Shown here in pieces: positions 40,032-50,490 of a DNA stretch of 64,000 bases. The notes under the pieces are model-generated. The model was given only the letters and a program-made list of their open reading frames with translations. It did no database searches and was not told the origin of the DNA. How positions within the stretch are numbered: the stretch's first letter is position 1; each line of letters opens with the position of its first letter. The position numbers and the translations under genes were made by a program. This DNA is from [Mycobacterium] crassicus (lineage in GTDB: Bacteria > Actinomycetota > Actinomycetes > Mycobacteriales > Mycobacteriaceae), in contig NZ_CP084029.1 in the NCBI RefSeq assembly GCF_020181615.1, positions 3,345,895 to 3,409,894 on the forward strand, in the 5' to 3' direction.

Positions 40032-40892
40032 TCAGCCCTCCACCGGGTCCAGCACGAAGCTGTAGTTCACCGTGTAGCTGCCGTCCGCCTGCGGTTTCGG
40101 ATCAAGCATCAACTCCGGCTTGACAGCGGAGGCCACGTCGTCGGCGTTGTGCGGGTCACCGGGAAAGTACAACTGGCCGGTAACCAGCTCATGACCGGGA
40201 GCCGACACCTTGAAGTGCACGTGCGCCGGCCGCCAGGCGTGCCAGCCGGCCGCCGCGATGAGTTGGCCGCAGGCACCGTCGGTAGGGATCATGTACGGCT
40301 TCGGCTTGATCGTCGCGACCCGGAACCTACCGTCCGGACCGGTCGAGACGCTGCCCCGTAGGTTCCAGACCGGCAGGCCGGGCGCGTATTGCGAGTACAA
40401 GCCGTCGTCGTCGGCGTGCCAGACTTCGATCTTTGCGGCCAGCGGTGAACCGTCCAGCGAGGTGATGGCGCCCTCCCACACCAGCTTGTCGCCCTGTTCG
40501 TCGTCACGCATCGGCAATGTGGCGTTCGGGCCCAGCTCGGGGGCGTTGGGCACGTAGTAGGGGCCCTCGATGGTGCCCTTGTTGCCCTTACGGTGTGCGG
40601 TGGTCACCTCCTCGAGCGCATGTTCCACCCAGACGTCCAAGAACAGCGGCCATTCGCCGTCGTGGCCGACCTTGATCAGCCACGCCTTGAGCGCGTTGTA
40701 CTCCGGATAGGTCACCTGATGCTTGCGAATGGTCTCGTGCACGGCCGCGAGCACCTCGCGGGCCAGCATGTCGACACGTTCGGGCGGTGTGTCCTTGACC
40801 GCGTCGAAGCCTCCCTTGTCCAAGGCGAACCGATCGCTGGCGGCATTGCCCGAAGCGGCGGCGCTGTGCTGCTGCGCATCCAATGTGGTCAT
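40032..40892 (-). CDS. catA: Catechol 1,2-dioxygenase CatA
   Basis: 286 residues from the ATG at 40892. It is an intradiol dioxygenase with the four Fe(III) ligands in place: Tyr166 (DDDGLYSQY), Tyr200 (KPKPYMIPTDG), His224 and His226 (RPAHVHFKV). It opens catechol to cis,cis-muconate. The N-terminal helical linker domain is intact. It lies between catB (19 bp away) and catC (4 bp). Confidence 0.96.
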   Translation of the reverse strand: MTTLDAQQHSAAASGNAASDRFALDKGGFDAVKDTPPERVDMLAREVLAAVHETIRKHQVTYPEYNALKAWLIKVGHDGEWPLFLDVWVEHALEEVTTAHRKGNKGTIEGPYYVPNAPELGPNATLPMRDDEQGDKLVWEGAITSLDGSPLAAKIEVWHADDDGLYSQYAPGLPVWNLRGSVSTGPDGRFRVATIKPKPYMIPTDGACGQLIAAAGWHAWRPAHVHFKVSAPGHELVTGQLYFPGDPHNADDVASAVKPELMLDPKPQADGSYTVNYSFVLDPVEG

Positions 40893-40911
40893 GGTTTCTC
40901 TCCTCGGTTTC

Positions 40912-42015
40912 TCAGCGGTCGACGCGGTAGCGGGCGAGTTTCTCGGGGTCGACCTGCACGCCGAGGCCGTTCCCTGGCGGCACGTGCAGGACGCCGTCGC
41001 GGATCTGCAGCGGCTCGGCGAGCAGGTCATCGCTCATGTCCAGGAAGTTGGACAGCTCTCCGGCGCGCCGCGACGTCAGCGGGAAGGCAGCACCGAAGGC
41101 AACCGCGCACGCCGTGCCGAGCTGTCCGTCGATCTGATTGCCCATCACCACTTCCAGCCCGAGCCCCTCCGCCAGATGGTGCACCCGACAAGAACCCGTG
41201 AAGCCGGTGCGCGCGGTCTTGATGGAAATGGCGGTCGCCGACCCGCCGAGCACCTCGCGGGTCACATCCGCCGGGGTGGGGGCGGACTCGTCGGCGATGA
41301 ACGGGATATCGAGTTGGCCCACCAGCCAGCGCCGGCCCAACACGTCGTCGGCCGGGCACAGCTCCTCGGCGAACAGCAGATCCAGGTCGGCCATCTTTTT
41401 CATCGCACGCAGCGACTCCGCAGCCGTCCAGCCGCGATTCCCGTCGACGTAGAGATCGATGGTGTCGCCGAACCGCTCCCGCAGCGCCCGAACGACGGCG
41501 GTGTCCAGGGACACCGGGCGGCGTCCCACCTTCACCTTGAAGGTGGTGATGCCGTAGGTGTCGCGCATCCGTTCGGCTTCGGCGACCATCACGGCGGGGT
41601 CGTCGAACCCGAGCATGTGACTGACCCGCATTTGGTCGCTGAAACCACCAAGCAGCTCACTGACGCCAAAGCCCAGTGTGCGGCCGAGCGCGTCCCAGAT
41701 CGCCATGTCCACCGCGGCTTTGGCCGTCGGGTTGCCGACCGTGCGGGCCAGCCGCGCGCCGACCGTCTCACGCTCGAGCAGGGTCAGCCCGATGAGCTGC
41801 GGAGCGAAGATCTGTTCTACCACCGCGATGATGCCGGCCTGGGTCTCGCCGTAGGTGAAGGGCCGCGGCGGCGCCTCCGCCGCCCCGACGATTCCGTCGT
41901 CGGTGTGCACCCGCACCAACACATGCGAAGCGACATGGACCTCGCCGGAGGCGAACTTCAGCGGTTTGGAATAGCTGATGTCAAAGGGAATAGCTTCCAG
42001 CGCAGTGATTTTCAC
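40912..42015 (-). CDS. catB: Muconate cycloisomerase CatB
   Basis: 367 residues of the enolase superfamily. The KxK acid/base motif is Lys160-Val-Lys162 (TFKVKVG); a metal ligand is in LYVDGNRGW and the second base region is in ISIKTARTG. It cyclises cis,cis-muconate to muconolactone. Its ATG overlaps the catR stop by 4 bp, so regulator and enzyme are translationally coupled. Confidence 0.95.
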   Translation of the reverse strand: MKITALEAIPFDISYSKPLKFASGEVHVASHVLVRVHTDDGIVGAAEAPPRPFTYGETQAGIIAVVEQIFAPQLIGLTLLERETVGARLARTVGNPTAKAAVDMAIWDALGRTLGFGVSELLGGFSDQMRVSHMLGFDDPAVMVAEAERMRDTYGITTFKVKVGRRPVSLDTAVVRALRERFGDTIDLYVDGNRGWTAAESLRAMKKMADLDLLFAEELCPADDVLGRRWLVGQLDIPFIADESAPTPADVTREVLGGSATAISIKTARTGFTGSCRVHHLAEGLGLEVVMGNQIDGQLGTACAVAFGAAFPLTSRRAGELSNFLDMSDDLLAEPLQIRDGVLHVPPGNGLGVQVDPEKLARYRVDR

Positions 42016-42914
42016 CGAACACCTCCGGGCTGCAGCGCGGGGAAGGCGTCCTGGATGACGGCCCGGACGGCGTCGACCAGCGGGGCATCCTCGCCGCTGC
42101 GCCAGGCCAGCGCCAGTTCGATGGTCCCGGCATCCAGCAGATCGCGGAACACCACTCCTTCCAACGGCACTCGCCGCGCGGATTCGGGTACTACGGCAAC
42201 CCCGAGTCCGGCGGCAATCAGGCCCAGCAGCACCGCGGTACCCGAGGCCAGATGCTCGCGCTGCGGCACGAAACCGACGGCGCGACAGGCCCGCAGCACG
42301 GTGTCGTTGACGGCCGATTCCCGGCTCTGGTAGGCGACGAACTTCTCGTTGCGCAGATCCGCCAGCGACACCACCGGCTCCACCGCGAGCCGGTGGTCGG
42401 CCGAGACCGCCAGCACGAGCGGTTCGACGGCGATGGTCCGCAGCTCCAGTCCCTCGCCGATTGCGGGCGGTCGCAGCACCCCCAGATCCAGTGCGCCAGA
42501 ACGCAGCCCATCGCAGTGCGCCGGGGTAAGCAGGTCGGCCTGGATCTCCAGATCGACACCGGGCAGCTCAGCCTGGACCATCCGGGCGATCCGCGGCAGG
42601 TGCGACAGCGCGGCGGTGCCGGTCAGCCCCAGCCGGATCCGGCCGCTGCGGCCCGCGGCGACCCGGCGCACACCGCGCACCGCGTCCTCGACGTCGGCGA
42701 GAATCCGGGCCACCTGGTCCTGCAGATACTCGCCGGCCGCGGTCAGTGACACCTGCCGGGTGGTGCGGTTGAACAACGTCGTGTCCAGTTCGGCCTCTAA
42801 CTGCCTGATCGCATAGGACAGAGCCGGCTGCGCGACGTGCAGCCGCTCGGCGGCCTGACCGAAATGGCAGGTCTGGGCAACCGCGGCGAAATAACGCAGG
42901 TGACGTAGCTCCAT
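42012..42914 (-). CDS. catR: LysR-type regulator CatR
   Basis: 300 residues from the ATG at 42914 (MELRHLRYFAAVAQ). The winged helix has FGQAAERLHVAQPALSYAIRQLE, and a periplasmic-binding-like effector domain follows. It is unusual in being the first gene of the operon it presumably controls rather than divergent from it. CatR of other bacteria senses muconate; here it also faces the divergent benA operon across 164 bp, so it may act on both. Confidence 0.9.
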   Translation of the reverse strand: MELRHLRYFAAVAQTCHFGQAAERLHVAQPALSYAIRQLEAELDTTLFNRTTRQVSLTAAGEYLQDQVARILADVEDAVRGVRRVAAGRSGRIRLGLTGTAALSHLPRIARMVQAELPGVDLEIQADLLTPAHCDGLRSGALDLGVLRPPAIGEGLELRTIAVEPLVLAVSADHRLAVEPVVSLADLRNEKFVAYQSRESAVNDTVLRACRAVGFVPQREHLASGTAVLLGLIAAGLGVAVVPESARRVPLEGVVFRDLLDAGTIELALAWRSGEDAPLVDAVRAVIQDAFPALQPGGVR

Positions 42915-42990
42915 GGATCTCAGCGTATGACCGGTATCCATATCGAACAAGAACATATTTTCCGATCATTAATCATGTTTTTTTATCAAA

Positions 42991-43017: not shown

Positions 43018-43078
43018 AGCTGGTGTGACGGTCGCCACCCAGTGCCAGGGTTTAAGAACCGACCCTTTGGAGGCTGAC

Positions 43079-44524
43079 ATGACCGCACCAAGCACCACCA
43101 AGCTGGACCGCCTGGCCGACGTGCTCGACGATGCTGTGATCGAGGACCGTGACGCCGGTATCTATCGGGTCAACCGCCGGATCTTCACCGACCCGGACAT
43201 CTTCGACCTGGAGATGAAATACATCTTCGAGGGCAACTGGATCTTCCTGGCCCACGAGAGCCAGATCCCCAACCCCGGTGACTACTTCACCACCGACATC
43301 GGCCGCAGCCCGGTGGTCATCACCCGCGACAAGGACGGGCAGCTGCACTGCCTGGTCAATGCCTGCTCGCACCGCGGCGCGATCCTCTGCCGCCGCAAGA
43401 CCGACAACCGGATGACGTTCACCTGCCCGTTCCACGGCTGGACGTTCCGCAACGACGGCAAACTGCTCAAGGTCAAGCTGCCCGAGGGCGCCGGCTACCC
43501 GCCGGAGTTCGACACCAACGGATCCCACGACCTGACCAAGGTGGCCCGCTTCGAGAGCTACCGCGGCTTCCTGTTCGGCAGCCTCAACCCCGACGTCGTG
43601 CCGCTGACCGAATACCTCGGCGACGCAGCGAAGGTGATCGACCTGCTGGTCGACCAGTCCCCGCAGGGCCTGGAGGTGTTGCGCGGCACCTCGACCTACA
43701 CGCTGCACGCCAACTGGAAGGTGCAGATCGAGAACGGCGCCGACGGATACCACGTGACCTCGGTGCACTGGAACTACGCGGCCACCACGTCGCGACGCAC
43801 CACCGGTGACTCCGCCTATGAGACCAAGGTGCTCGACGCCTCCAAGTGGGCCGCGGACGGCGGCGGCTACTGGTCGTTTCCGCACGGCCACATGTGCCTG
43901 TGGACCCAGGCCGCCAACCCCCAGGACCGACCGCTGTACGGCGAGATCGATCGGCTGCGGGAAGCGCACGGGAAAGCCAAGGGCGAGTTCATGGTTGCCG
44001 GCTCCCGCAACCTGTGCCTGTACCCCAACGTTTACCTGATGGACCAGTTCTCCACCCAGATTCGCCGGATCAAGCCGATCTCAGCCGACCGGACCGACAT
44101 CAGCATCTGGTGCATCGCGCCCAAGGGCGAGAACCCCGAGGCCCGGGCCAACCGGATCCGTCAGTACGAGGACTTCTTCAATGCCACCGGGATGGCGACC
44201 CCCGACGACCTGGAGGAGTTCCGATCGGTTCAGAACGCCTTCCACTCCAGCACCGCCCAATGGAACGACGTCAGTCGCGGCGCCCAGCACTGGCTCGCCG
44301 GTCCGGACCCGGTGGCCAAGTCCCTCGGCATGGACCACGTCCTCTCCTCGGGGGTCAAGGCCGAGGACGAAGGCCTGTTCGTCGTGCAGGACCAGTACTG
44401 GCTGGAGGCCATGCAGGACGGGCTGGAAAAGGAACGAGCCCGGGAGCAGGCGATCGCAGCCGCGATCAGCGCCGGCCGCGCCCTCCGCGCCAACAGGACC
44501 CACCCGAGCCCCTGCGACCACTGA
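43079..44524 (+). CDS. benA: Benzoate 1,2-dioxygenase alpha subunit BenA
   Basis: 481 residues from the ATG at 43079 with TTGGAGG upstream. Rieske cluster: Cys96-x-His98 and Cys116-x2-His119 (ACSHRG, TCPFHGW). The catalytic mononuclear iron motif is in ENGADGYHVTSVHWNY. It is the large oxygenase subunit that adds O2 to benzoate, giving the cis-1,2-diol. First gene of benA-benB-benCD, with 12 bp to benB. Confidence 0.96.
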   Translation: MTAPSTTKLDRLADVLDDAVIEDRDAGIYRVNRRIFTDPDIFDLEMKYIFEGNWIFLAHESQIPNPGDYFTTDIGRSPVVITRDKDGQLHCLVNACSHRGAILCRRKTDNRMTFTCPFHGWTFRNDGKLLKVKLPEGAGYPPEFDTNGSHDLTKVARFESYRGFLFGSLNPDVVPLTEYLGDAAKVIDLLVDQSPQGLEVLRGTSTYTLHANWKVQIENGADGYHVTSVHWNYAATTSRRTTGDSAYETKVLDASKWAADGGGYWSFPHGHMCLWTQAANPQDRPLYGEIDRLREAHGKAKGEFMVAGSRNLCLYPNVYLMDQFSTQIRRIKPISADRTDISIWCIAPKGENPEARANRIRQYEDFFNATGMATPDDLEEFRSVQNAFHSSTAQWNDVSRGAQHWLAGPDPVAKSLGMDHVLSSGVKAEDEGLFVVQDQYWLEAMQDGLEKERAREQAIAAAISAGRALRANRTHPSPCDH

Positions 44525-44536
44525 ACGGAGCATCAG

Positions 44537-45061
44537 ATGACCACCGCTACCCCCACCCAGACCGGTGCCAAGCACATCACCCAGAACGCGATCGAGGCGT
44601 TCCTCTACCGTGAGGCGCGCTATCTCGACGACCGCGAGTTCGAGAAGTGGCTGGAGTGCTACGGCGACGACGTCGTGTTCTGGATGCCCGCCTGGGACGT
44701 CGACGACCGGCTCACCGAGGATCCCCAGACCGAGGTGTCGCTGATGTACTACCCGAACAAGGGCGGCCTGCACGACCGGGTCTTCCGGATCCGCACCGAG
44801 CGATCCTCGGCGACGTCACTGCCGGATCCACGCACCAGCCACAACATCGCCAACGTGGAGGTCATCGAGCGGCGTGGCGACGTGGTCGACGTCCGGTTCA
44901 ACTGGCACACCATGTATTACCGCTACGAGGCGGTCGACCCGTACTACGGGACGTCGTTCTACACCATCGACTTCTCCGGCGAACAGCCGCTGATCCGGCG
45001 AAAGACGGTGGTGCTCAAGAACGACTACATCGACCACGTCGTGGACATCTACCACATCTGA
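44537..45061 (+). CDS. benB: Benzoate 1,2-dioxygenase beta subunit BenB
   Basis: 174 residues, the usual length for the SnoaL-like small subunit, with FLYREARYLDDREFEKWL and the IANVEVIERRGDVVDVRFNW strand region. It has a structural role in the alpha3beta3 oxygenase. GGAG precedes the ATG. 10 bp separate it from the reductase fusion. Confidence 0.95.
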   Translation: MTTATPTQTGAKHITQNAIEAFLYREARYLDDREFEKWLECYGDDVVFWMPAWDVDDRLTEDPQTEVSLMYYPNKGGLHDRVFRIRTERSSATSLPDPRTSHNIANVEVIERRGDVVDVRFNWHTMYYRYEAVDPYYGTSFYTIDFSGEQPLIRRKTVVLKNDYIDHVVDIYHI

Positions 45062-45071
45062 GGACCTCACC

Positions 45072-47813
45072 ATGACCGTCACATCGCACCCGGAGACCTC
45101 AGCCGACACCACCGACGCGGCGCCGCTGCACCAGGTGGCGCTCGGATTCGAAGACGGCGTCACCCGGTTCATCAACTGCGCCGAGGACCAGACGGTCGCC
45201 GGCGCCTCCTATCGCCAGCGGATCAACATCCCGGTGGACTGCCTCGATGGCGTGTGCGGCACTTGCAAGGCTTTCTGTGAGTCCGGAACCTACGAGCTCG
45301 GTGACTACGTGCCCGATGCGCTCACCGAAGACGAGGCCGCAGCCGGCTACTGCCTGCCCTGCGTGATGAAACCGCGGTCGGACGTCGTACTGCAGATCCG
45401 CAGCACCTCCGAGGTCGCCAAAACTCAGGCCGGCACCTTCTCGGGCACGCTGGTCACGCTCGAGCGGCTCTCGCCGACGACCATGCTGGTCGGGTTGGAG
45501 ATCGCCCATCGCGCCGAGCTGACCTTCCTGCCCGGCCAGTACGCCAACATCGTCGTGCCCGGCGCCTCCCCGACCGAGAAGGTGAGCCGGTCGTATTCGT
45601 TCAGCAATGCTCCCAACGACGACCGGCTGACGTTCCTGGTGAAACTGACTCCCGGCGGGGCGATGTCGACCTACCTCACCGATCGGGCGGCGGTCGGCGA
45701 CCCCATCGAGTTCACCGGACCGCACGGGTCGTTCTTCCTGCGCGAGACCGAGCGCCCGGTGCTGTTGCTGGCCGGCGGCACCGGGCTGGCGCCGGTGCTG
45801 GCGATCCTGCGCAAGCTCCGAGACGACGGCAGCCGGCGCCGCGCCCACCTCATCTACGGCGTCAGCACCGACGATGACCTGGTGGAGCTCGACGCGCTCG
45901 CCGAACTCGCCACCGGACTACCGGGTTTCAGCTGGGACTACTGCGTCTCGGACCCCGACAGCTCCGCACCCAACCGGGGTCCGGACAAGGCCCACGTGAC
46001 CAGCCTGATCGCCCCCGAACACCTCTACGACGGTGACGTCGCCACCTACGTCTGCGGCCCGCCGCCGATGGTCGAGGCGGTGCGCAAGCACCTCACCGAC
46101 GGCGACGTCGCGCTGACCGGCTTCTACTACGAGAAGTTCGCGCTGGCGGTGCCCGGCGCCAGCGAGGCCCCCGCCGCCGAGACCGCCGCCGAACCGGGCG
46201 GGCTGCCGAGCCCCGCCGTGCCGGCCGAAGATCTGCTCACCGCCCCCGACGCGCGAGCGGTGATCGGCCAGGTCATGCTGCCCGCCGCCACCATCGACCC
46301 GTGGCCGGATGCGGTGGTCACCACGCCCGAGGGCGACACCGCCCGTCGTATCCTCGGTCAGCCGCTCACCCCGGCTGGTGCCGGTGGCGTCACCGTGCCC
46401 CTCGACGAGGGCGGTCCGCTGTCGGAAACAGGCGCACGCTCGGTCCTCGGCCAGGAGCTCTTCGCGGCCGTGTCCACCCCCGGGCCCTCGGCTGCGCCGA
46501 CCGTCCCGGCGCCCACTGTCGCCCCCGACGGCTACCAGATCGGCGAGGAACACCCGGCGGTGCACGAATCCGACGCGATCTTCGAGGCCCGCGAGGCACT
46601 GGAGCTCGGTGCGGTGGAACTGACTCTGGGCCGGCTGACCAGCCAACAACTCACCGGCTACCGGCTGCTGGCAGAGTCGACGCTGCCCTACGTCGACGGC
46701 GACCGTCTGGTCGACGCCACCCAGTACACCGAGACCAACGCGGCGTTCCACGAGTACCTGTTCACCCTCACCGGCAACGAACACCTGCTGCAGGCCTACC
46801 AGGCCCTCGGGGTGAAGGGCCGGATGGGCGAGGTGCTGCGCAACGCCACCTGGTGTCACCCGCTGTGCGCCCAGGACCACGTCGACATCGTCGCGGCGTT
46901 CGAGGCCGGCGACCGCACCGGCGCGCGGGGTCTGATCTCTGCGCACGCCGACCGGGCCAAGCAGACCATGCGCCGCGCGATGGCCGACGCCCTGGCCGAA
47001 CGGCGCCCGAGGTTCATCACCCCCGGCCGCTTCGCCGGCAAGGTCGTGGTGGTCACCGGGGCCGCACAGGGCATCGGCGAACGCACCGCCCGGCGGATCA
47101 ACGCCGAGGGCGGCACGCTGGTGCTGGCCGACCGCTCCGCACTGGTCGACGAGTTGGCCCGGGAGCTCGCCGAGGAACCGGTCGCCGGCAGTCCGCAGAC
47201 CCTGGCGGTCACCGTCGACCTCGAACAGCCCGAGGGTGCTACTGATCTTGTGCAACAGGCACTTTCGCGGTTCGGCCGGATCGACGTGCTGATCAACAAT
47301 GTGGGCGGGGCGATCAACTTCAAGCCGTTCACCGAGTTCAGCGGCGCCGAGATCCGCGCCGAGCTGGACCGTTCGCTGCTCACCACGCTGTTCGCTTGCC
47401 GCGCCGTGCTGCCCTCAATGGTGACCCACGGGCAGGGGGTGATCGTCAACGTCTCGTCGGCGGCCACCCGGGGCGTCAACCGGATTCCGTATTCGGCGGC
47501 CAAGGGCGGCATCAACGCGATCACCGCGTCGCTGGCGATGGAGTACGCCGACGCCGGCATCCGGGTCTGCGCCACCGCGCCGGGCGGTACCCAGGCGCCA
47601 CCTCGCCGGATCTCCCGCGGCACACCGGAGGCCGGCAGCGACACCGAGCGGGCCTGGTTTCAGGCCCACATCGACCAGACCATCGACTCCTCACTGCTCA
47701 AGCGTTACGGCACCCTCGACGAGCAGGCCGCCGCGATCTGCTTTCTGGCCTCCGACGAGGCGTCCTACATCACCGGGACGGTGTTGCCGGTCGCCGGCGG
47801 CGATCAGGGCTGA
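45072..47813 (+). CDS. benCD: BenC reductase - FCD domain - BenD dehydrogenase fusion
   Basis: 913 residues in one frame. (1) BenC, 1-365: plant-type [2Fe-2S] cysteines 57, 62, 65 and 97; FAD motif RSYSFSNAP; NADH motifs AGGTGLAPVLAIL and YVCGPPPMVEAV. (2) A linker of about 130 residues with three AR-x-x-x-GQ repeats (394, 424, 455). (3) A GntR-type FCD sensor domain, about 494-640, with the metal-site pattern Asn556-x3-His560, His603, His625 and no winged helix. (4) BenD, 652-913: SDR with TGAAQGIG, Ser795/796, Tyr807, Lys811. It should reduce BenA and oxidise the benzoate cis-diol to catechol. BenC and BenD are separate proteins in Pseudomonas and Acinetobacter. Confidence 0.92.
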   Translation: MTVTSHPETSADTTDAAPLHQVALGFEDGVTRFINCAEDQTVAGASYRQRINIPVDCLDGVCGTCKAFCESGTYELGDYVPDALTEDEAAAGYCLPCVMKPRSDVVLQIRSTSEVAKTQAGTFSGTLVTLERLSPTTMLVGLEIAHRAELTFLPGQYANIVVPGASPTEKVSRSYSFSNAPNDDRLTFLVKLTPGGAMSTYLTDRAAVGDPIEFTGPHGSFFLRETERPVLLLAGGTGLAPVLAILRKLRDDGSRRRAHLIYGVSTDDDLVELDALAELATGLPGFSWDYCVSDPDSSAPNRGPDKAHVTSLIAPEHLYDGDVATYVCGPPPMVEAVRKHLTDGDVALTGFYYEKFALAVPGASEAPAAETAAEPGGLPSPAVPAEDLLTAPDARAVIGQVMLPAATIDPWPDAVVTTPEGDTARRILGQPLTPAGAGGVTVPLDEGGPLSETGARSVLGQELFAAVSTPGPSAAPTVPAPTVAPDGYQIGEEHPAVHESDAIFEAREALELGAVELTLGRLTSQQLTGYRLLAESTLPYVDGDRLVDATQYTETNAAFHEYLFTLTGNEHLLQAYQALGVKGRMGEVLRNATWCHPLCAQDHVDIVAAFEAGDRTGARGLISAHADRAKQTMRRAMADALAERRPRFITPGRFAGKVVVVTGAAQGIGERTARRINAEGGTLVLADRSALVDELARELAEEPVAGSPQTLAVTVDLEQPEGATDLVQQALSRFGRIDVLINNVGGAINFKPFTEFSGAEIRAELDRSLLTTLFACRAVLPSMVTHGQGVIVNVSSAATRGVNRIPYSAAKGGINAITASLAMEYADAGIRVCATAPGGTQAPPRRISRGTPEAGSDTERAWFQAHIDQTIDSSLLKRYGTLDEQAAAICFLASDEASYITGTVLPVAGGDQG

Positions 47814-47850: not shown

Positions 47851-50490
47851 GTGGCGGTGAGCAGATCGGCCGCGGCATGCGTCGGACGTGATCACGAGCT
47901 GGCTGAGCTGGCCGGGTTTCTCGATGCCGCCGCAACACGCGGCGCCGCAATGGTATGCATCACCGGTCCGTCCGGAATCGGTAAAACCGCCCTGCTGCGT
48001 CGCCTCACCGAGACCCACCGCGGTCCGGTGCACTCGGCGCAGGCGATGGACTGGGAGACCGACAGTCCCGCCGGGGTTCTGCGTCAGCTGCTACAGGAAT
48101 CCCCGCCGACCGAACCGGTCGCCGCGGCCGCCTGGCTGGCCGACCGGGTCACCGGCGACGGCCCGACGCTGATCGTCGTCGACGACGCCGAGTTCGCCGA
48201 CCCGGTCTCGCTGAAAGCACTGAGCACACTGGTACGCCACCGGCAGTCCTCGGCGATCCTGGTGCTGCTCGCGATGACGACTCCGACTCCCCTGCTGGCC
48301 GGATTCGGTACCGAGGAGATCCGGTTGACCGGGCTTTCCCCCGCCGCGGTCGCCGACCTGGCCCGGCTGCGCGGCCGGGTGCTGCACCCGGCGATGGCCG
48401 AGCTGTTGACCCGCCACACCCGCGGCAATCCCCGCGACGTGCTCGCGCTGCTCGACGAGCTGCCGGCGTCGAGTTGGGCGCAGCCGGACGCCCGGCTGCC
48501 CGCCCCGGCGCACGTCACCGCCGACGTACGGGTTCGGCTCGATCACTGCAGCGCCGACACCCGCGCCCTGATCGAAGCCCTGGCGATCCTGGACCCGGAC
48601 GAATCCCTTGACGCCGCAACGCAGTTGGCCGGTCTGACCGATCCGCTCGACGCGATCGACGAGGGCGTCGCAGCCAACTTGATCACTATGACGGCCGACC
48701 AACGCCCCCACCTTTGCGATCCGCTGACCACCGCCGCCGTCGTCGCCATCATGGGGGTGCGCGCCGTGGCGGCGGCGCATCACCGGGCCGCTGAGGTCGT
48801 CGTCGACCCGGCCCGCCGGCTGCGGCACCTGGTCGCGGCCACCCCGACCACCGATCCGCAGCTGGCCGACCGCGTCGATCAGCTGGCGCACGACCGGTCC
48901 GGGGCCGGGGCGTGGGCCGAGGCCGCCGGGCTCTACCGCGATGCCAGCCGGCTCACCGCCGATCCGCTGCTGCGCGACGAGCGGCTGACCCGGTCGGTGG
49001 ATGCGCTGGTCGCCGCCGGGGACTGCGCGGGAGCGGCCACCTTGGTGCCGGTTGTGGAGAGCCTGCGGGAGACCCCGCTGCGCAACGCCGTGTTGGCCTA
49101 CCTGGCAGTGCTTCGCGGCCGGGCGGCCGAGGCGGAGGTCCGGTTGCAACGCGCCTGGGACATCGTCAACGCCGAACGCGACCCGGCGACGGCGGCCCTG
49201 ATCGCCCAGCGCCACGTGCTGAACTCGCTGATGCGGTGCCGCGGGGACGAGCTGGTCGGCTGGGCGGATCGCGCGATCGCGCTGGCCGGCGACGACTCCC
49301 CCGCCGGGCTCGAGGCCGCCGCGATCCGCGGACTCGGGCTGGCGGCGTCGGGCCGATCCCGCGAAGCCGCCGCCGGCTACGACGACCTCGGCGCGCGCGT
49401 CCGGGACGGGGCGCAGGCCCAGCGTGTCACGATGGGCCGCGGCTGGTTTCAGCTGAGCATGGACGAGGTCGACGGCGCCCGCAGCAATCTGGAGAGCGCC
49501 GTGGCGATGGCCGAGCTGGGCGGCTCGTCGCGAATCACGCTGTGGGCCCTCGCGTGGCTGGCCCGCGTGCAGTTCACCGTCGGAGACTGGGACCGCGCGC
49601 TGGACAGTGCCCGGCGGGGCCGCGAGCTGGCGGCCGGGACGGGCATCGTGCTGGTCACACCGCTGCTGGCATGGACCGAGGCCCAGGTGTACGCGCTGCG
49701 CGGATCCTGGCAGGCCGCCACTGCAGCAGTGTCGGCGGCGGACGCGGTGACCGGCGACTACGAGCTGATGCGGCTTCCCACACTGATCGCCCGCGCCGGC
49801 CTCGCCGAGGCCGAGGCCGATCACGCCACCGTGCGGCGGGTTCTCGAACCGTTGACCAAAGCGTCCTGGGATCCCGCACAGCACGAACCTGCGCTGTGGC
49901 CGTGGGTTGACATGCTGGCGGGTGCGCTGGTCAGCGACGGCCAACTCGGTGCGGCCGAGGCGTTTTTGGGCTCCCACGAACGGTTCTGCCGCGGCCACCG
50001 GTCCGCGCAGGCGCGGCTGTCCGCTGCGCGCGGCAGGCTGTTGGGCGCCACCGGCGACCTCGCCGCGGCACGCCGGTGCTTCGACGAGGCACTGGCACTA
50101 CTCGACGGACTGCCGATGCGCTACGACCTGGCCCGAATCAACTTCGCCTACGGCCAGACGCTGCGCCGCGCCGGTAAGCGCCGCGATGCCGACCCGATCA
50201 TCCGCACCGCCCGCGAGCTGTACCTGTCTCTGGGCGCGCAGACCTTCGTCGACCGCTGCGAACGCGAACTCAAGGCCGGCGGCGTGCATCAACTGCGCGG
50301 TTCACGCCGCAACGCCGAACTCACCCCGCAAGAAGAGGCAGTGACAGCACTTGTCGCACAGGGTCTCTCGAATCGGGAGGTCGCCGCCGAGCTGTACATC
50401 TCGGCGAAGACGGTGCAGTACCACCTGACCCGCATCTACGCGAAACTGGAAGTGCGGTCGCGTTCCGAGTTGGCCGCACTGCGTCGCTGA
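47851..50490 (+). CDS. LuxR-family LAL-type ATPase regulator, probable ben regulator
   Basis: 879 residues from a GTG (a second GTG is two codons later). An AAA/STAND ATPase domain has Walker A TGPSGIGKTALLRRL (39-46) and Walker B TLIVVDDAEFAD. A long helical TPR-like middle follows, and the C terminus is a LuxR helix-turn-helix (LVAQGLSNREVAAELYISAK). It lies 37 bp after the ben genes. LuxR-type BenR proteins control ben operons in Rhodococcus (recalled), so it probably activates ben genes in response to benzoate. It could equally serve the alicyclic cluster downstream. Confidence 0.87.
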   Translation: MAVSRSAAACVGRDHELAELAGFLDAAATRGAAMVCITGPSGIGKTALLRRLTETHRGPVHSAQAMDWETDSPAGVLRQLLQESPPTEPVAAAAWLADRVTGDGPTLIVVDDAEFADPVSLKALSTLVRHRQSSAILVLLAMTTPTPLLAGFGTEEIRLTGLSPAAVADLARLRGRVLHPAMAELLTRHTRGNPRDVLALLDELPASSWAQPDARLPAPAHVTADVRVRLDHCSADTRALIEALAILDPDESLDAATQLAGLTDPLDAIDEGVAANLITMTADQRPHLCDPLTTAAVVAIMGVRAVAAAHHRAAEVVVDPARRLRHLVAATPTTDPQLADRVDQLAHDRSGAGAWAEAAGLYRDASRLTADPLLRDERLTRSVDALVAAGDCAGAATLVPVVESLRETPLRNAVLAYLAVLRGRAAEAEVRLQRAWDIVNAERDPATAALIAQRHVLNSLMRCRGDELVGWADRAIALAGDDSPAGLEAAAIRGLGLAASGRSREAAAGYDDLGARVRDGAQAQRVTMGRGWFQLSMDEVDGARSNLESAVAMAELGGSSRITLWALAWLARVQFTVGDWDRALDSARRGRELAAGTGIVLVTPLLAWTEAQVYALRGSWQAATAAVSAADAVTGDYELMRLPTLIARAGLAEAEADHATVRRVLEPLTKASWDPAQHEPALWPWVDMLAGALVSDGQLGAAEAFLGSHERFCRGHRSAQARLSAARGRLLGATGDLAAARRCFDEALALLDGLPMRYDLARINFAYGQTLRRAGKRRDADPIIRTARELYLSLGAQTFVDRCERELKAGGVHQLRGSRRNAELTPQEEAVTALVAQGLSNREVAAELYISAKTVQYHLTRIYAKLEVRSRSELAALRR

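Follow-up and report, generated by a model that had tools for sequence, protein, structure and literature searches.

A BenC-FCD-BenD fusion protein in mycobacteria and relatives: the FCD domain travels with BenC and may act as an allosteric sensor

We analysed a 64,000-nucleotide stretch of the [Mycobacterium] crassicus genome (contig NZ_CP084029.1; hereafter the window) that carries, behind benA and benB, one gene for a three-part protein: the NADH-using reductase of the benzoate dioxygenase system (BenC), an FCD domain and the NADH-producing cis-diol dehydrogenase (BenD). BenC-FCD-BenD is a genuine architecture, common in mycobacteria and relatives. FCD is attached to the reductase in each of the three architectures that we found, with BenD fused, with BenD encoded separately, or with a cytochrome P450 in the place of BenD. 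The FCD domain keeps an invariant Asn-His3 set, and the linker that joins it to BenC in the fused proteins bears a repeated motif. We propose, tentatively and at somewhat less than an even chance, that FCD is a predicted metal and pathway-carboxylate binder that gates the electron flow from BenC to the oxygenase BenAB, with the linker motifs as a docking arm and BenD tethered to it.

Results

One frame encodes two enzymes and an FCD domain

The fusion gene starts at an ATG at 45072 and runs without internal stop to a stop codon at 47811-47813 (Table 1). Along its product, Pfam finds Fer2 (residues 27-101), FAD_binding_6 (126-221), NAD_binding_1 (232-339), FCD (503-627) and adh_short (657-843), and the BenC and BenD parts each exceed the cut-off of their NCBIfam equivalog model. 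The BenC part aligns over its whole length with the Acinetobacter BenC structure (PDB 1krh, E 6.9e-92), a protein of 338 residues that stops where the linker of the fused protein starts. An earlier, sequence-only reading of this DNA had described an uninterrupted 913-codon frame with BenC, FCD and BenD in one chain and no DNA-binding domain; all of this held up, the last point in the Pfam search, where none of the eight families matched at E ≤ 1 across the 913 residues is a helix-turn-helix (HTH) family. The N-terminal winged-helix DNA-binding domain by which a GntR regulator is recognised is absent from the fusion protein.

Both enzyme halves look active, judging from their signature residues, which are invariant in an alignment of 65 fused relatives taken from the 120 best database matches. 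In BenC these are C57, C62, C65 and C97, which we take to be the 2Fe-2S cysteines, R173-S176, presumably the flavin motif, and G235-G238 and C328-P331, presumably NADH motifs. In BenD they are T662, G663, A665-G669, Y807 and K811, which we assume to make up the nucleotide motif of short-chain dehydrogenases/reductases (SDR; T662-G663...G667-I668-G669) together with Y807-x3-K811. Inspection by eye of the 181 bases around codons 633 and 637 showed no clear ribosome site for an internal start that would give free BenD.

The three-part fusion is common in mycobacteria and relatives

Among the best 120 of 1033 database matches, the identical domain set is present in all 120 listed proteins, namely this one and 119 relatives with 65-85% identity, for which the names given by the sources include Mycobacterium, Mycolicibacter, Mycolicibacterium, Gordonia, Nocardia, Aldersonia and Antrihabitans; databases mostly call these proteins plain BenC or BenD. 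We also tallied genomes by hand from the rows of three samples, at the levels of order, family and class, which overlap and include this genome. One frame spans all parts in 19 of the 22 matching order-level genomes (249 sampled) and in 52 of the 101 matching family-level genomes (301 sampled, 200 without a match at E 1e-65), and 11 of 15 matches are fused at the class level (394 sampled). In a separate phylum-level search (396 genomes) the BenC model matched 22 genomes at E 1e-60, only 4 of them above the model cut-off.

The organisation of the split loci, in which benC-FCD and benD are separate genes, indicates how a fusion could come about: an in-frame benD start candidate overlaps the benC-FCD end by 1 or 4 bases in 57 of 63 (the 144 loci with a BenC match overlap, the same gene having been fetched twice, and the figures 63, 58, 18 and 5 are counts of loci), so that a small slip would fuse the two genes. 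By the same token, one small indel introduced in sequencing or assembly could join them artificially, but the recurrence of the fusion in the listed proteins and in whole genomes, including single-contig assemblies such as G230, leads us to reject an artefact for the family and leaves it a negligible probability.

The FCD domain travels with BenC

G250, an Arthrobacter relative with 100% identity to Arthrobacter ipis, has a separate benD, and its BenC-FCD is a protein of 524 residues. With this protein as query, the best 120 of 6314 matches all carry FCD and none carries an SDR domain; their sources are Arthrobacter, Kocuria, Micrococcus, Nesterenkonia, Brevibacterium, Rhodococcus and others. 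These two-part proteins, which are widespread in Actinobacteria, share the domain order and the operon of the fused protein, but benD is a gene of its own and the linker, mostly of 18-66 residues, is without A-R-x-[IV]-x-G-Q. They bear out the earlier suggestion that some actinobacterial BenC proteins may carry part of the fusion.

A third form, BenC-FCD-cytochrome P450, is present in Burkholderia metallica (L116 3001-5802, 933 aa, checked by a Pfam scan) and Caballeronia humi (L114 894-3683, 929 aa); neither benA nor benB was found on these two short loci. Among 72,556 plasmid records, 101 have a match, five of them at full length and all five from Paraburkholderia; a Paraburkholderia P450 fusion lies at L186:5001-7790, and the plasmid copy inspected is annotated BenC. 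The PDB chains nearest to the P450 part are YjiB-type. Plain BenC next to benD was seen at 13 proteobacterial loci (L118, L120, L122-L126, L128-L133).

We placed these forms on a BenC tree of 72 sequences (31 fused, 27 split, 12 without FCD and 2 P450 rows), hand-picked from the 144 loci with near copies avoided and rooted at the midpoint only. The 62 actinobacterial rows group together (100/99), and the 31 fused rows fall into a single clade (100/100) within which only G207, split and FCD-less, is nested: on this tree the BenD fusion arose once, within the BenC-FCD group. Three FCD-less operons (L173-L175) fall inside the FCD-bearing group, which reads as loss of FCD, and if the root lies among plain proteobacterial BenC a single gain of FCD would suffice. 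The position of Enemella (Propionibacteriaceae) within the fused clade hints at transfer from one family to another, a suggestion weakened by its pairing with another long branch. Rows flagged as long branches are L115, L120, L122, L019 and L164, and the grouping of L122 with L118 and two other rows is doubtful.

G227 had been a candidate for a BenC-BenD fusion without FCD and was rejected, tblastn finding no BenC on the locus. It is a remnant (L028) in which about the last 25 BenC residues, a linker with three motifs and BenD make one frame without FCD; the stretch upstream looks catB-like by eye, on the opposite strand. Separately, in L049 and L050 (G052, G007) a BenC-like reductase is fused to a part that by eye resembles an FAD-dependent monooxygenase, about 850-900 aa in all, and the fusion in G052 adjoins a luciferase-like gene.

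The BenC-linked FCD keeps a predicted metal site like that of FCD regulators

The FCD assignment is well above threshold (PF07729, E 1.4e-15, 58.3 bits vs a cut-off of 24.3), and a structure model of residues 490-650 (mean pLDDT 94.8) has FCD regulators as its best PDB matches. The check proposed earlier for the middle segment thus gave both a PF07729 match and, in the model, an FCD fold. The order N/D-x3-H...H...H of the metal-binding FCD subgroup is present as N556, H560, H603 and H625, the three histidines singled out before being found again with spacings of 43 and 22, and all four residues are invariant in all the FCDs aligned (48, this protein and those from 47 loci hand-picked for spread). 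On sequence grounds, this Asn-His3 set is the equivalent of the zinc site of the regulator Atu1419.

As far as the excerpts of PMC7797058 and PMC8012715 describe them, Atu1419, NanR, TM0439 and LldR share the FCD fold and the N/D-x3-H...H...H metal site with the protein studied here, but they bind DNA through an N-terminal winged helix, whereas here FCD sits between two enzymes without a DNA-binding domain. A profile search of the PDB with FCD gave 13 matches at E ≤ 0.1, and the five whose alignments were printed are regulators, with Asp at the position of the Asn of BenC-linked FCDs; a single-sequence search gave two chance-like matches and nothing useful. The FCD piece alone as query retrieved 38 proteins, of which the 12 inspected all look like BenC-FCD or BenC-FCD-BenD pieces, and within this search no close stand-alone FCD regulator was seen as a source.

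A repeated motif marks the linker of fused proteins

The three motif copies in the linker (Table 1), which the sequence-only reading had not pointed out, follow a consensus, in fused linkers, of about A-R-x-[IV]-A-G-Q-x-[ML]-[FL]-P. Linkers were parsed in two ways, one covering 100 of 120 fused and 131 of 137 split proteins (three below 500 aa left out), the other 111 of 120 fused proteins. Fused linkers are 89-181 residues long in the 111 parsed proteins and 106-235 in the fetched loci. A loose pattern finds 293 copies in the 111 linkers (three in 70, two in 36, one in 3 and four in 2), vs 5.4 copies on average and 13 at most in 500 shuffles. In the first parsing the spacings cluster at 30-32 residues, and A-R-x-[IV]-x-G-Q is found in none of the 131 parsed split linkers. 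Although the same linkers served to define the pattern and to count it, the contrast between fused and split proteins is clear. A stricter pattern gives 0 to 3 copies per fused locus, with none in fused L159, and when R may be replaced by T or H it also matches ATAVPDQ in the split linkers of L161 and L162. Elsewhere among the proteins of this genome there is no convincing match to the linker motif (best E 0.035).

A group with split benD (g419), probably Dietzia by the likeness of L163 to P0141, has long linkers in which another repeat, ARPVGY-P, occurs three times at intervals of 28-32 residues, in six of its seven genomes (L160, L161, L162, L163, L165 and L166); the pattern finds three in five of them, and the third copy of L166 (ATRPVGY) was recognised by eye. 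The seventh genome (L164) has a short linker without ARPVGY-P.

The fusion gene follows benA and benB in a probable ben operon

The fusion gene begins 10 bases past benB, with benA and benB upstream in the same direction, and further genes of the pathway and a LysR-type regulator gene lie nearby (Table 1). The BenA score is slightly below its equivalog cut-off, and the anthranilate model scores far lower (444.9 bits), so that benzoate is the likely, rather than proven, substrate. Downstream, 37 bases past the fusion gene, starts a large regulator-like gene (47851-50490, 879 aa) with an ATPase and a LuxR-type HTH by eye and no NCBIfam match at 1e-20; genes of an acyl-CoA pathway come next. Elsewhere in the same genome, a stretch (L004, G000:C1:4450600-4450854) matches the last 85 BenD residues at 66-70% identity and may be left over from a second ben operon.

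Table 1. Features of the fusion gene and its neighbours, in window positions
Feature	Position	Strand	Remarks
BenC-FCD-BenD fusion gene	45072..47813	+	913 codons plus stop, single open frame
BenC part (2Fe-2S, FAD, NADH domains)	45129..46142	+	residues 20-357; NF040810 437.1 bits, cut-off 430
BenC-FCD linker	46143..46538	+	residues 358-489; predicted disordered, poorly conserved outside motifs
Linker motif copy 1, ARAVIGQVMLP	46251..46283	+	residues 394-404; R395 98%, G399 91%, Q400 94% in 65 fused relatives
Linker motif copy 2, ARRILGQPLTP	46341..46373	+	residues 424-434; G429 91%, Q430 95% in 65 fused relatives
Linker motif copy 3, ARSVLGQELFA	46434..46466	+	residues 455-465; R456 89%, G460 86%, Q461 83%, F464 91% in 65 fused relatives
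FCD domain	46554..47003	+	residues 495-644 of model; Pfam match 503-627
Predicted metal site, first half: N556, H560	46737..46751	+	invariant in 48/48 FCDs; as Asn137, His141 of Atu1419
Predicted metal ligand H603	46878..46880	+	invariant in 48/48 FCDs; as His192 of Atu1419
Predicted metal ligand H625	46944..46946	+	invariant in 48/48 FCDs; as His214 of Atu1419
BenD part	47028..47810	+	residues 653-913; NF040811 396.7 bits, cut-off 380
benA, oxygenase large subunit	43025..44524	+	TIGR03229 754.9 bits, cut-off 780.95; true start of listed frame likely further in
benB, oxygenase small subunit	44537..45061	+	TIGR03232 268.6 bits, above cut-off 225.55
LysR-type regulator gene, divergent from benA	42012..42956	-	LysR models matched, all below cut-off
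Muconate cycloisomerase family gene (catB-like), pathway neighbour	40912..42015	-	TIGR02534 201.6 bits, below cut-off 334.95
catA, catechol 1,2-dioxygenase, pathway neighbour	40032..41030	-	TIGR02438 458 bits, above cut-off 404.4; frame as listed

Discussion

Judged by the sequences, an allosteric sensor role for FCD fits best. BenC passes electrons from NADH to the BenAB oxygenase, and the FCD domain would hold a metal and, on binding a pathway acid, likely benzoate or its diol, alter electron delivery by BenC; such gating would save NADH and keep reactive oxygen low. Oxygenases of the BenAB type consist of three alpha-beta pairs, and a three-fold oxygenase together with up to three evenly spaced motifs suggests docking on three equal sites, so that the linker motifs may keep the arm attached to BenAB. 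Sharing the chain, BenD would convert the diol nearby, its attachment mainly keeping the NADH-using and the NADH-making enzyme in equal number beside the oxygenase. Metal binding, carboxylate binding, the effect on electron transfer and motif docking are what we infer from the domains, the fold, the site, the pairing and the repeats.

Several observations weigh against this proposal. Four actinobacterial ben operons have BenC and BenD but no FCD (L027, L173, L174 and L175), nested among FCD-bearing forms, so that the pathway can do without the domain. In the model, the connection of FCD to BenD is close and that to BenC loose, an arrangement that may speak for an effect on BenD, and the candidate docking motifs are modelled as low-confidence hairpins and vary in number (two copies in 36 of the 111 linkers by the loose pattern). 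Finally, a structural zinc that holds the fold, as in Atu1419, would give the same conservation of the site.

The benefit of the fusion could instead lie in cofactor recycling and hand-over, as the sequence-only reading had envisaged, with the NADH made by BenD reused by BenC, the diol passed from BenAB to BenD, and FCD secondary. BenC consumes one NADH for each that BenD makes, the signature residues of both halves are retained, and the fused clade of 32 tree rows contains a single reversal (G207), all of which is compatible with such coupling. Free NADH, however, is shared throughout the cell, and the long disordered linker of the model gives no channel. Moreover, FCD stays with BenC even when BenD is a protein of its own or is replaced by a P450, so that recycling cannot explain why FCD is there. 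NADH recycling is possible and gains no specific support from this analysis; as the explanation of the whole architecture we consider it quite improbable. A second alternative takes FCD with a fixed zinc as a folding, dimerisation or spacer domain that senses no ligand. The metal site strongly stabilises the fold of Atu1419, which melts at 52.6 degrees C but at 34 degrees C once the three metal-site histidines are removed (PMC7797058), the FCD helix runs almost straight into BenD in the model, and the domain was lost in the four operons mentioned. This explanation should be taken seriously but is, in our view, unlikely: N556 is retained beside the three histidines in every aligned FCD, FCDs bind ligands in the regulators covered by the excerpts of PMC7797058 and PMC8012715, and in split BenC-FCD the domain is carried on a flexible arm, a position in which a spacer would serve no obvious purpose. 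That the protein moonlights as a regulator, controlling ben transcription through FCD, is very improbable; GntR regulators do have FCD as their effector domain (Pfam PF07729; PMC7797058), but the 913 residues hold no HTH domain at E ≤ 1 and a LysR regulator already adjoins benA.

The sequence-only reading knew of no description of such a fusion, and here it was mistaken: the genome paper on Gordonia alkanivorans YC-RL2 (2019, PMC6362181) states that its benC and benD form a fusion that includes an FCD domain. In the portion of that paper available to us this is an annotation remark, the function is not examined, and the linker repeats, the origin of BenC-FCD and the P450 forms go unmentioned. 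Going by this printed description, the YC-RL2 gene resembles ours in combining BenC, BenD and FCD and in belonging to a benABCD operon, which in our window is a probable one, and other Gordonia sequences are present among our 120 best matches. A Rhodococcus paper of 2025 (PMC11858498, as far as its available text goes) lists benC as an FCD domain-containing protein, and a search of titles and abstracts for this fusion, BenC-FCD or BenC-FCD-P450 found nothing beyond the Gordonia paper and the TG-1 annotation. New here are the pairing of FCD with BenC, the single origin of the BenD fusion, the P450 form, the invariant Asn-His3 site and the linker motif.

In its broadest form, the proposal makes BenC-FCD a ligand-gated electron-supply cassette, in which an effector domain taken over from transcription factors switches an NADH reductase according to the level of substrate or product, serving a Rieske dioxygenase in Actinobacteria and a P450 in Burkholderiaceae, which in mycobacteria and relatives has gained BenD and a three-motif linker clamped on BenAB to become a tethered benzoate-to-catechol machine; taken whole, this is doubtful. 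The value of the finding lies in the wider architecture pattern and in a testable function for FCD and linker, the repeated motif predicting equal sites on the three-fold oxygenase. If FCD gates the reductase, a sensor domain of gene regulators has been reused to control the electron flow of an enzyme, and such gating would be a natural way for Rieske and P450 systems to deal with wasted NADH and reactive oxygen; FCD gating and linker docking could then aid the design of better dioxygenase and P450 catalysts.
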